Origin: an uncultured Clostridia bacterium
GTDB taxonomy: Bacteria; Bacillota; Clostridia; Christensenellales; Borkfalkiaceae
Length of the DNA: 34,668 nt
Reading direction: 5' to 3'
NCBI GenBank assembly: GCA_946540675.1
Contig: CAMNIW010000002.1
Span: 1 to 34,668 of the forward strand
The notes beneath the pieces were generated by a model. That model saw nothing but the letters and a program-made list of their open reading frames with translations. It was not told the origin of the DNA and searched no databases. Made by a program: the position numbers and the translations under genes. Within the stretch, counting starts at the first letter, position 1. Each line of letters begins with the position of its first letter. This document shows, one piece after another, positions 3,197 to 7,659 of the stretch.

Positions 3197-4291
3197 ATGA
3201 GAAGCGTAATAGATATTCTCGACCTTACGAGAGAAGAAGTGGACGGGCTCGTGGAAAAAGCCCTTGACATAATAGCCGACCCGAAGAAGTATTCGGAGAT
3301 ATGTCGCGGCAAAAAACTCGCCACGCTCTTTTTCGAGCCGTCGACGAGAACTCGTCTTTCCTTTGAAGCGGCGATGTACGAACTCGGCGGAAACGTCCTG
3401 TCCGTTCCGGGCGCGTCGCTGTCTTCGGCGGCAAAGGGAGAGAGCGTTGCGGACACCGCCAAAGTCGTTTCCTGCTACGCGGATATAATAGCGATACGCC
3501 ACCCCAAGGAAGGCGCGGCCGCCGTCGCGGCGAACAGCGCGGACATACCCGTCATCAACGCGGGCGACGGCGGACACTGCCACCCGACGCAGACTCTTAC
3601 CGATATGCTGACCATACACAGGGAAAAGGGCAGGTTCGACGATCTCGTCGTGGGATTTTGCGGCGACCTTAAATACGGCAGGACGGTACATTCGCTCATA
3701 AACTCCCTGTCGCGGTATAAAAACGTAAAACTCGTTCTCATCTCGCCCGAAGAACTGAAACTTCCGGGATACGTAAAGCGCGGAGCGATAGCGAGAAGCG
3801 GTATGGAATACGTCGAAACGGCGAGCCTTGAAGAATATATGCCCGAACTCGACGTCCTTTATATGACGAGAATACAAAGGGAAAGGTTTGCCGACGCCGA
3901 CGAATACGAAAGGCTTAAAGACAGTTACGTTTTGACGCCCGAAAAACTCGTCCCCGCAAAAGAAGATATGATAATACTTCATCCCCTTCCGCGCGTCAAC
4001 GAGATAAGCGTCAGGGTAGACGAAGACAAAAGGGCGTGCTACTTCAAGCAGGCGCTCAACGGCAAGTATATACGTATGGCGCTCATACTCAAACTGCTCG
4101 AAGAAGCCGAAAACAAGGAGAAAGAGCCGCCGTTTAAGGGCAAGAAGTTGATTTACGGCAAGTATACCTGCAAAAACGACAGGTGTATAACGACCGTCGA
4201 ACAGGAACTCACGCCGATATTTTTCCCCGCGGAGTGCGAAGAAGGAAAATTCCGTTGCGCCTACTGCGAGAAAAAAGTCAAAACCGAATAG
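3197..4291 (+). CDS. pyrB: aspartate carbamoyltransferase catalytic chain with C-terminal PyrI-like zinc ribbon
   Basis: FEPSTRTRLSFEAAM and HPLPR motifs; C-terminal CKNDRC...CAYCEKK (Cx4C...Cx2C) as in the PyrI zinc domain. Confidence 0.92.
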   Translation: MRSVIDILDLTREEVDGLVEKALDIIADPKKYSEICRGKKLATLFFEPSTRTRLSFEAAMYELGGNVLSVPGASLSSAAKGESVADTAKVVSCYADIIAIRHPKEGAAAVAANSADIPVINAGDGGHCHPTQTLTDMLTIHREKGRFDDLVVGFCGDLKYGRTVHSLINSLSRYKNVKLVLISPEELKLPGYVKRGAIARSGMEYVETASLEEYMPELDVLYMTRIQRERFADADEYERLKDSYVLTPEKLVPAKEDMIILHPLPRVNEISVRVDEDKRACYFKQALNGKYIRMALILKLLEEAENKEKEPPFKGKKLIYGKYTCKNDRCITTVEQELTPIFFPAECEEGKFRCAYCEKKVKTE

Positions 4292-4303
4292 AGAACGCCG
4301 AAA

Positions 4304-4335
4304 AAAGCGGGGACGGAAAATTCCGTCCCCGCTTT
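4304..4335. terminator. bidirectional hairpin between convergent pyrB and the 4343-4813 gene
   Basis: aaagcggggacggaa-aa-ttccgtccccgcttt, 15-bp perfect stem. Confidence 0.8.
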
Positions 4336-4342
4336 GCGGTCA

Positions 4343-4813
4343 TCAAAACTCTTCACCGTTGAGTCTGGTTATTATTTTAGCCATCGCCTTTATTTCGGAG
4401 TCGCTCATATTTTCGGAGTATTCGGCAAGGACGCCCGCAGTCTGTTCTTCGGTCTTACACTCTCTGACCGCCGAGAGAGCCGAAGGAAGTTTGTCTTCGG
4501 GGACGAAAGTCTTTATAAGTTCTTCCGTCGCGTCTTTTTTTGCGCCCCTGCAAAAGACGTTTCCTATCGCGAAAGACAGTCCGAAGACGGTCGTTCCGCG
4601 CTCGGGGAGCGTTCCGAAGTCGCCGCCCGTCGCGGCGAGATATACGGCAAAGGCAAGAAAGGAAAGGGCGAGTTTTATCGCCGTTTCCGTGCGTTCAGGC
4701 AGACGGGGAAACAGTTTTCTTATCGCCGCGTATACGGCGAGCACCGCGCCCGCGGCGAGAAAAGTTTCCAGTCCGAAACGATTGAGCATCGCGAATATTT
4801 TTACAGTTTCCAT
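4343..4813 (-). CDS. uncharacterised small membrane protein (about 156 aa)
   Basis: METVKIFAMLNRFGLETFLAAGAVLAVYAAIRKLF... with two hydrophobic segments; ATG at 4813 preceded by GGCGGTGAAA; the tracked start at 4870 lies inside the repeat array. Confidence 0.6.
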   Translation of the reverse strand: METVKIFAMLNRFGLETFLAAGAVLAVYAAIRKLFPRLPERTETAIKLALSFLAFAVYLAATGGDFGTLPERGTTVFGLSFAIGNVFCRGAKKDATEELIKTFVPEDKLPSALSAVRECKTEEQTAGVLAEYSENMSDSEIKAMAKIITRLNGEEF

Positions 4814-5157
4814 TTTCACCGCCTTACGGGCGGAGAAATCCGGGCGAAATGCACTTTTCCGAGAAAGCACAAAGGTCTGCCGCCCGTTTTTTCACCGCCT
4901 TACGGGCGGAGAAATACGGGCGAAACGCACTTTTCCGAGAAAGCGCAAAGGTCTGCCGCTCGTTTTTTCACCGCCTTACGGGCGGAAAAATCCGGGCGAA
5001 GCGCACTTTTCCTGTCGAAGAGCGGAAACAAACCGCCCGTTTTTCACCGCCTTACGGGCGGAGAAATCCGGGCGAAACGCACTTTTCCGAGAAAGCACAA
5101 AGGTCTGCCGCCCGTTTTTTCACCGCCTTACGGGCGGAGAAATCCGGGCGAAACGCA
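4813..5157. repeat. 76-bp tandem repeat array, 4 full units plus a 41-bp partial unit
   Basis: ttttcaccgccttacgggcgg starts at 4813, 4889, 4965, 5041 and 5117, exactly 76 bp apart; each unit has ccgcc-ttacg-ggcgg. Confidence 0.95.
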
Positions 5158-5159
5158 AA

Positions 5160-5321
5160 TTATTCGTCGTCGTTTTTCGGCTTCGGGAAAGATTTTTCGC
5201 CCGTCGGCAAAGGAGCGTTTTTTTCGGGCTCGCTTCGCCGAAATAAGCCGTCGGGCAAATCGGGAACGTTTTTAAGCCTTTTCGGGCACAACTTCTTTTT
5301 CAAATAAAACCTGTTCGGCAT
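5160..5321 (-). CDS. small basic hypothetical protein (53 aa), not in ORF track
   Basis: ATG preceded by GGAGGGATAT; reads MPNRFYLKKKLCPKRLKNVPDLPDGLFRRSEPEKNAPLPTGEKSFPKPKNDDE*. Confidence 0.55.
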   Translation of the reverse strand: MPNRFYLKKKLCPKRLKNVPDLPDGLFRRSEPEKNAPLPTGEKSFPKPKNDDE

Positions 5322-5397
5322 ATATCCCTCCGCCCTATCGTTTTTCCAGACGCGGAAAGATTATAACGCCGTTTTTCCGAAAGTCAAGAGTTTACTG

Positions 5398-7659
5398 TCA
5401 GCAAACTTTTTTGAAAATTCTCACGCAAAAGGCGGTCATATCGTCTTTCGCTTCTCCGCCCGTAAGAGCGAGCGCGCGGTTTAATATGTTGTCCGCGAGA
5501 ATTTTGGGGTTGAGAGCCCTTTGCGACGACAAAAACCCGACGAGATCGCCGGAAGAGCCGAACGCGTCCGACACGCCGTCGCTCATAAAGACTATCACGT
5601 CGCCGCTCGAAAGAGTTGTTCTGCTTATCGTCGGGCGCATTTCGTCGAGTATTCCGAGCGGCAAAGAATTGCCTTCCACGATCTTTACCGAGTCCTTTGT
5701 GACGACGAAGGAATACGGCGAGCCTATCTTTATGAAGTCCGCACCGCCCGAAGAAAGGTCGATGACGCCTATATCCATGGCGGTGAAGTCGTCTTTGCGG
5801 TTAAAGGCGAGAAGTTTGTTTACCGTGGAAAGCACGGTTTCGGACGGAAGTCCCGCCTTGTAAAAGGTTTCGACCAGCGATATGGCGGTGGCGGAAACGT
5901 CTTCCGCGCCTTCTCCGCTGCCCATACCGTCGTTTAAGGCTATCAGGAACTTGTTTTCGGACAGTTTGGTCACCGAGTGGGTGTCTCCGCTTTTTTGCTT
6001 GTCGGATTTTGTCGTCGCCGCTATCCCGAACACGGCGTCGAAAGTCGGCGCGCGCTTTAACGTTACGGACGACAGATCTCGCGTAAGGTCGGCTTTTGCG
6101 GTTATCGCCGGCGGAAAACCGAAAACTTCTTCCACGGACTGTAAAAACGCCTTTTTGGCGACGTCTTTTTGCGGAAGAGTGACGTTTATCTCGACGTCGC
6201 TATCGTCGCCGAACACGAGCGCTTCGGTCGCAAAAATGCCTTCCGTAAACAGTTTTTTAAGCAATTTCTTTTCGCTGTCGCGCCTGATTTCGAGTTGTCT
6301 GCTCATAGAAAAAGCCAACGCTTTCAAAACCGCAGACAGTCCTTTCGTTTCGGACAGGACGAGTTGTCTGCCGCTTTCAAGCGCTTCGTTTTCGTCCATT
6401 TCGCGCTCGAACAGTTTTATAAGAGAATTGACTTTTTCGGTCACGCTTTCGGGATAGGCGCAGTTTTCCGAGAAGGATCGGGGAAGGTCGACAAGGTTCA
6501 GTCTGCCTTTGGCGAACCCGATAGACACCGCGTTTTTAAGTATTTCGGGCGAAGGGAAATCGCGGTTGCGGCACTTTTTAAGCGACGGACAAACCGAACA
6601 CACCGAAAGAAGCACGTCTTCGGCGGCGTTGTCCGTTATGCTTTCTTTGGAAACCGTTTTTTCTCCGAGTTTTTGCATAGAACCGTACATTTCGTCAAAG
6701 ACCGCCGCGATTTCGTACAGTTTTCCCGATACGGCGGAGCGGTTGCGGTTTACCGAGTATCTTACGAGATTGTCCGATTTGTATAGAGCCATCGCGTCCT
6801 TTAACCGTGAAAGACGCTTTGTCGGCGTAAAGAGAAACACGACCGACGGTATCAGCAGGATAAGCGAATAAGCGGGATCCTTTACGGGATAAACGTCGGT
6901 GAACAGCCACAGCATCACCTGTACCGCGACGACCGAGAAAGAAGTCAGTATCTTCGAGCGTTCGGAAAAAATCATCGCGGCAAGCGAACACACGAGAAAT
7001 ATCCCCATCGCCGAAAAACTCCTTTCGTACAGGCACACGGGCAGGGCGGACACGGCGGCGACCACGGCGGTAAAACCTTTCGGAAGGATGACCGCGGCGT
7101 AAAGCGTTATCGTAAGCCCCGCGGCTTGCCAGGCGTATGAGCCGAGTGAAACCGTCGCCCCGTACCCCACCGCGCAAAACAGCGTCGCCGCGGCTATAAA
7201 CTCGTCGGTTTTTACGCGGTATCTGAGACCTTTTATCAGCATAACGCGCGCGCCTGCGGTCATAATCACCGAAAAAGCCGAAACGGTTACGGAAATCACC
7301 GTCTTTTCGAGATAGCCGTAAGACGGTGACGCGGCGATAAAGGGTATAAGAGATATAAACGTGAGCGGTATTATCTCGAAAGTCGGCGTTCTTTTGTAGC
7401 GTCCCGCGATAAAAAAGTACGCGCATATCACGGCGCCGCAGGTCGCGCCTATCCATATCGGCGTTATGTCCGCGGATATGCAAAAGGGGAGAGCGTACAG
7501 AAAAAACGACGGAAGCGGATTGAGTCCGGCTCCGAGATTTCCGACGAGAAGCGCGGCGGAAAGCGGTGAAAATTTTCCGTCGGCGAGAGTTATAAAGACG
7601 TAGCCGACAAGGGTTGCGGCGTACTTCAGGATCCTTTTAAGGTCGACAGGTTTTCTCAT
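5398..7659 (-). CDS. spoIIE: stage II sporulation protein E (membrane PP2C-type phosphatase)
   Basis: Multi-TM N-terminus, Cys-containing middle region, C-terminal PP2C/SpoIIE domain (LIALNDGMGSGEGAEDVSATAISLVETFY...). Confidence 0.9.
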   Translation of the reverse strand: MRKPVDLKRILKYAATLVGYVFITLADGKFSPLSAALLVGNLGAGLNPLPSFFLYALPFCISADITPIWIGATCGAVICAYFFIAGRYKRTPTFEIIPLTFISLIPFIAASPSYGYLEKTVISVTVSAFSVIMTAGARVMLIKGLRYRVKTDEFIAAATLFCAVGYGATVSLGSYAWQAAGLTITLYAAVILPKGFTAVVAAVSALPVCLYERSFSAMGIFLVCSLAAMIFSERSKILTSFSVVAVQVMLWLFTDVYPVKDPAYSLILLIPSVVFLFTPTKRLSRLKDAMALYKSDNLVRYSVNRNRSAVSGKLYEIAAVFDEMYGSMQKLGEKTVSKESITDNAAEDVLLSVCSVCPSLKKCRNRDFPSPEILKNAVSIGFAKGRLNLVDLPRSFSENCAYPESVTEKVNSLIKLFEREMDENEALESGRQLVLSETKGLSAVLKALAFSMSRQLEIRRDSEKKLLKKLFTEGIFATEALVFGDDSDVEINVTLPQKDVAKKAFLQSVEEVFGFPPAITAKADLTRDLSSVTLKRAPTFDAVFGIAATTKSDKQKSGDTHSVTKLSENKFLIALNDGMGSGEGAEDVSATAISLVETFYKAGLPSETVLSTVNKLLAFNRKDDFTAMDIGVIDLSSGGADFIKIGSPYSFVVTKDSVKIVEGNSLPLGILDEMRPTISRTTLSSGDVIVFMSDGVSDAFGSSGDLVGFLSSQRALNPKILADNILNRALALTGGEAKDDMTAFCVRIFKKVC

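Follow-up and report, generated by a model that had tools for sequence, protein, structure and literature searches.

Mycobacterial interspersed repetitive units (MIRUs) are dispersed through the genome and apparently mobile; they have a unit of about 77 bp and are arranged in tandem at senX3-regX3. Such units lie between genes that run in the same direction, close to where one stops and the next starts, and translational coupling is possible there (PMC12548453). The STAR elements of Staphylococcus aureus are GC-rich intergenic direct repeats interspersed at many loci, where their copy number changes (PMC3532100). Intergenic VNTRs, or minisatellites, consist of near-identical units set head to tail at one locus, with a period that is not a multiple of 3 and no conservation among species.

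Here we describe a tandem array of 76-bp units in a window of 34,668 nucleotides (the whole stretch of DNA that was analysed) from an uncultured Clostridia bacterium (Table 1). It resembles MIRUs in its placement and STAR elements in its composition and intergenic position. In contrast to both, however, its unit occupies a single locus; it is unrelated in sequence to STAR, seems to be home-grown from the local ribosome-binding site (RBS), and lacks the coupled ORFs with canonical starts of the MIRUs. With minisatellites it shares every trait listed above, having near-identical head-to-tail copies at one intergenic locus, and it departs from them in that the unit contains an RBS. The array looks like nothing out of the ordinary, a local stutter: a lineage-specific minisatellite built out of a copied ribosome-binding junction.

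Table 1. Features of the array and its surroundings (positions in the window).
Feature	Position	Strand	Remarks
76-bp tandem array	4813-5157	-	Units 4813-4888, 4889-4964, 4965-5040 (divergent linker), 5041-5116, 5117-5157 (partial)
Extended Shine-Dalgarno (SD) site AAGGCGGTGA of gene X, last unit	4816-4825	-	Spacing of 5 to ATG
Hairpin CCGCC-CGTAA-GGCGG burying the SD	4819-4833	-	Repeated in every unit
Gene X, 156 aa, predicted all-helical (membrane) protein	4343-4813	-	
Small ORF (sORF), 53 aa, MPNRFYLKKK...	5160-5321	-	Has RBS; family directly upstream of gene X in congeners; absent from ORF list
Predicted sigma-A-type promoter TTGACT-N16-TATAAT for sORF-array-gene X transcript	5360-5387	-	
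spoIIE homologue, upstream neighbour	5398-7659	-	Pfam SpoIIE match

TRF delimits the array at 4813-5157 with a period of 76 and 4.5 copies, confirming the five starts exactly 76 bp apart (4813, 4889, 4965, 5041, 5117) seen in the initial annotation, and the remark made there that this period is not a multiple of 3 holds. There are four full units plus a fifth, partial copy of 41 bp. Identity within the array is 0.80 at a lag of 76; over the rest of the 40-149 range it stays at or below 0.40. Between copies one and four there is a single difference in 76 bases. The third unit (4965-5040) has 23 to 26 of its 76 positions changed relative to the other full units, nearly all of them in a distinct linker, its first 48 bases being nearly unchanged; despite the altered linker it is still 76 bp long and still has the ACGGGCGG element, which could be a hint of constraint. 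The CCGCC-TTACG-GGCGG hairpin proposed for each unit is indeed present, each of the five copies having an exact CCGCCTTACGGGCGG (4819, 4895, 4971, 5047, 5123). This core has no substitutions across the copies, although 0 of about 6 landing there is not significant (p ~ 0.18, hand calculation). A CRISPR array, with its unique spacers, was rejected, the linker being near-identical in three of the four full units. This genome does carry a probable CRISPR array elsewhere (L094, G000:C11, 1366-2133; repeat GTGTAATTCTATCAATATCCAACAAGGAACTAAAAC, period ~66 bp).

The minus-strand order is spoIIE, the promoter-like sequence, an RBS, the 53-codon sORF, the array, gene X, and a hairpin with T-runs (~4291-4340) beside pyrB; this hairpin, AGCGGGGACGGAAAATTCCGTCCCCGCTTT, is probably a terminator shared bidirectionally by pyrB and gene X. 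The copy nearest gene X was predicted to abut its ATG, and it does, overlapping the A. The proposal that the array is the 5' leader of gene X did not hold up, as the conserved sORF (5321-5160) precedes it on the same predicted transcript. Because this small ORF, with its own promoter and RBS, lies upstream on the same strand, the array is, on the predicted transcript, intercistronic between two minus-strand genes. Promoter-like sequences similar to that of the window are found at the same place in congeners. Just past the -10 box (5353 in the window; gene X promoters of relatives, L143-L182) there is a conserved sequence, GCGTCTGGAAAA in the genus of the window and GCGGCGGGAAAA in other genera; it may be an operator or an element of the 5' UTR, and a single copy of it exists in 738 kb of this genome.

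Searches of Pfam up to E = 1 gave no match to gene X, and no NCBIfam model came near its cut-off. The AlphaFold model of gene X is all-helical (mean pLDDT 82) and matches no PDB fold at E <= 0.001. A profile search found homologues in 143 of the 251 genomes of the family, and those relatives that are named derive from gut metagenomes, those of ruminants among them. The sORF lies directly upstream of gene X in 12 of 13 loci of the genus, the window included; it was not recognised in G002. In congeners it usually ends at the gene X start or overlaps it: its stop codon begins between -168 and +104 nt relative to that start, and beyond it in seven of them (G001, G003, G004, G006, G008, G010, G014), versus -349 in the window. 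The next gene upstream is spoIIE in several congeners (e.g. G011, G004, G012, G013) but not in others (e.g. G001, G006).

A whole-genome search placed the unit at a single locus, so that it is not a dispersed repeat. The initial annotation had named a lack of conservation in relatives among the findings that would refute its reading, and neither the array nor its period is conserved there. A DNA search of 100 relatives with the unit found no copy, exact-pattern scans of GTDB species genomes and IMG/VR (from which the genome of the window and those near it may have been left out) did not find the core pattern, and in none of the 70 loci from relatives that have gene X or a homologue of it did TRF detect an array at the junction. 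The locus whose spoIIE is closest by DNA (L078, 61% identity) is uninformative on the array, because the sORF-gene X pair has been lost or moved there (within the 348 bases compared). On these comparisons, the conserved part is the gene X ribosome-binding junction copied by each unit, not the array. Such arrays are not unique to this locus: in the 738 kb of the genome (about half) scanned with TRF as background, two tandem arrays combine three or more copies with a long period that is not a multiple of 3, namely this one and a non-coding array of 58 bp x 3.3 upstream of a tuf-like gene (L133, G000:C47, 1886-2074). At a locus in another genus (L162, 470-628), a 71-bp repeat x 2.2 lies upstream of the gene X promoter region, a different junction.

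We consider it likely, from sequence comparison, that the array arose at species level, as a minisatellite, by tandem duplication of the sORF/gene X junction, i.e. of gene X's own translation-initiation region. Every minus-strand unit ends in the extended SD and hairpin that serve gene X, and the 3' end of the unit, GATTTCTCCGCCCGTAAGGCGGTGAAAATGG, aligns by eye with the junction between sORF end and gene X RBS in congeners, for example GTTTTTTTGCCCCCAAGAAAAAGGCGGTGCAAAATGG in L043; it is this 3' end, and not most of the linker, that could be traced to a source. Past the sORF stop, the first unit reads FAFRPDFSARKAVK in the sORF frame, an echo of the KKAV ending of congeners, whose sORFs finish in motifs such as FFAPKKKAVQNG; the last unit runs into gene X as SAFRPDFSARKAVK-M. 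Likewise, AAGGCGGTG serves gene X as its SD in several congeners, and it does so in another genus too.

The array would have formed by replication slippage or unequal recombination, and its copy number probably varies between strains. The copy adjoining the ATG would work as the gene X RBS, and AAGGCGGTGA forms a stronger duplex with the anti-SD (-12.5 kcal/mol) than does AAGGAGA (-9.3). Since the SD copies at 4901, 4977, 5053 and 5129 are not followed by ATG, GTG or TTG at usable spacing, the upstream copies would act as a GC-rich structured spacer, parting gene X from a small ORF to which it is normally coupled, and any activity of theirs as a ribosome standby site or decoy would be weak at most. 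Because the coupling of neighbouring genes falls as their spacing rises (PMC12548453), the array probably separates gene X from its sORF. We rejected GGCGG as the general SD of this lineage, as the motifs that prevail upstream of ORFs are AGGAG and GGAGG, with no enrichment of GGCGG; the 16S gene was not found in this metagenome-assembled genome.

Alternatively, the array could be a functional regulatory RNA in which CCGCC/GGCGG hairpins hide the SD and alternative CGGGCGG/CCGCCCG pairings expose it, thereby controlling gene X; we regard this as unlikely. The SD of the last unit is almost fully paired within its hairpin (mean unpaired probability 0.01, as low in 3% of shuffles), and the more distant locus L079 has the same SD-hairpin design, but in most other congeners SD burial is unremarkable relative to shuffles. 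Similarly, the full array is more stable than its dinucleotide shuffles (z = -4.3), whereas a single unit reaches only z ~ -1.9 and the opposite strand -4.9; because the excess rises with copy number and is present on the opposite strand, it is largely the copy-with-copy pairing expected of repeats. The initial annotation had suggested competing stems chained along the array. The pairing motifs are there, but one alternative stem is broken, the unit-end CCGCCCG being CCGCTCG in the second unit (4889-4964), and no compensatory changes were seen in the array stems, leaving the chain without covariation support. Rfam gave no match at the gathering score, only a meaningless snoRNA match (E = 0.15). 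Conserved structure with compensatory changes, the mark of a structured cis-regulatory RNA, was not found: the 70 loci compared lack the array, and the SD hairpin is variably present. A regulatory role for the array is possible but unsupported. In another genus, the L065 locus has a terminator-like hairpin, GCGTCCGCCGC-AAACA-GCGGCGGACGC, and a T-run directly before the gene X SD, a possible attenuator.

A MIRU-like ribosome relay, in which mini-ORFs within the units hand ribosomes along to gene X, is less probable still. Each mini-ORF would consist of an SD, an ACG start 6-7 nt downstream and 23 codons ending at a TGA inside the next SD, the last stopping 2 nt before the ATG. An ACG does lie 6-7 bases downstream of four SD copies, and from three of the four a frame of 23 codons runs to a stop within the next SD; ACG is also the apparent sORF start in four congeners, and MIRU ORFs couple to the insertion gene in a similar way (PMC12548453). 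Of internal ORFs overlapping neighbouring stop or start codons, a trait of MIRUs, the units offer only ACG-led frames. However, the same arrangement arises in 31% of dinucleotide-shuffled units, the third unit breaks the chain with a 46-codon ORF, and three of four unit differences are non-synonymous in the ACG frame (hand count). On balance, the duplicated junction accounts better for the array than either of these schemes, and the last explanation, a pure artefact of metagenome assembly, is very unlikely, since, even in a genome of 246 contigs and 78% completeness where the copy number could be wrong, the units are set apart by SNPs and one distinct linker, the longest exact repeat is 65 bp, and congeners match the flanking sORF and gene X.

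Members of the sORF family share [KR][FY]Y close to the start and P..[LF]F in mid-protein. In 8 of 12 members there is a well-placed, purine-rich SD and no ATG, GTG or TTG at the aligned start, which is instead ACG in four, ATT in two and ATC in two; the sORF of these species therefore appears, by alignment, to start at ACG, ATT or ATC. The eight form five groups (G011, G009, G012/G013, G003/G006 and G010/G008; loci L036, L037, L038, L040, L041, L042, L046 and L048). The G010/G008 pair has a coding signature: third positions account for 12 of 17 changes, and the changed codons are synonymous in 9 cases versus non-synonymous in 4; the G003/G006 pair (3 versus 8) does not discriminate, and the third pair is identical. 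Near-cognate starts have bacterial precedents in infC and sigR, two genes that IF3 represses (PMC5472188). By analogy, we tentatively suggest, as a rather speculative scheme, a genus-wide leader-ORF switch in which an sORF with a near-cognate start is coupled to gene X, so that gene X would respond to initiation fidelity (IF3) as infC and sigR do, and which would have been rewired in this species by an ATG start and the tandem RBS array. The array itself could serve at most as a strain-typing locus, and it is a fairly clear case of a repeat traceable to a copied ribosome-binding region. The apparent non-canonical starts of the sORF family are more interesting than the array and are worth a proper test.
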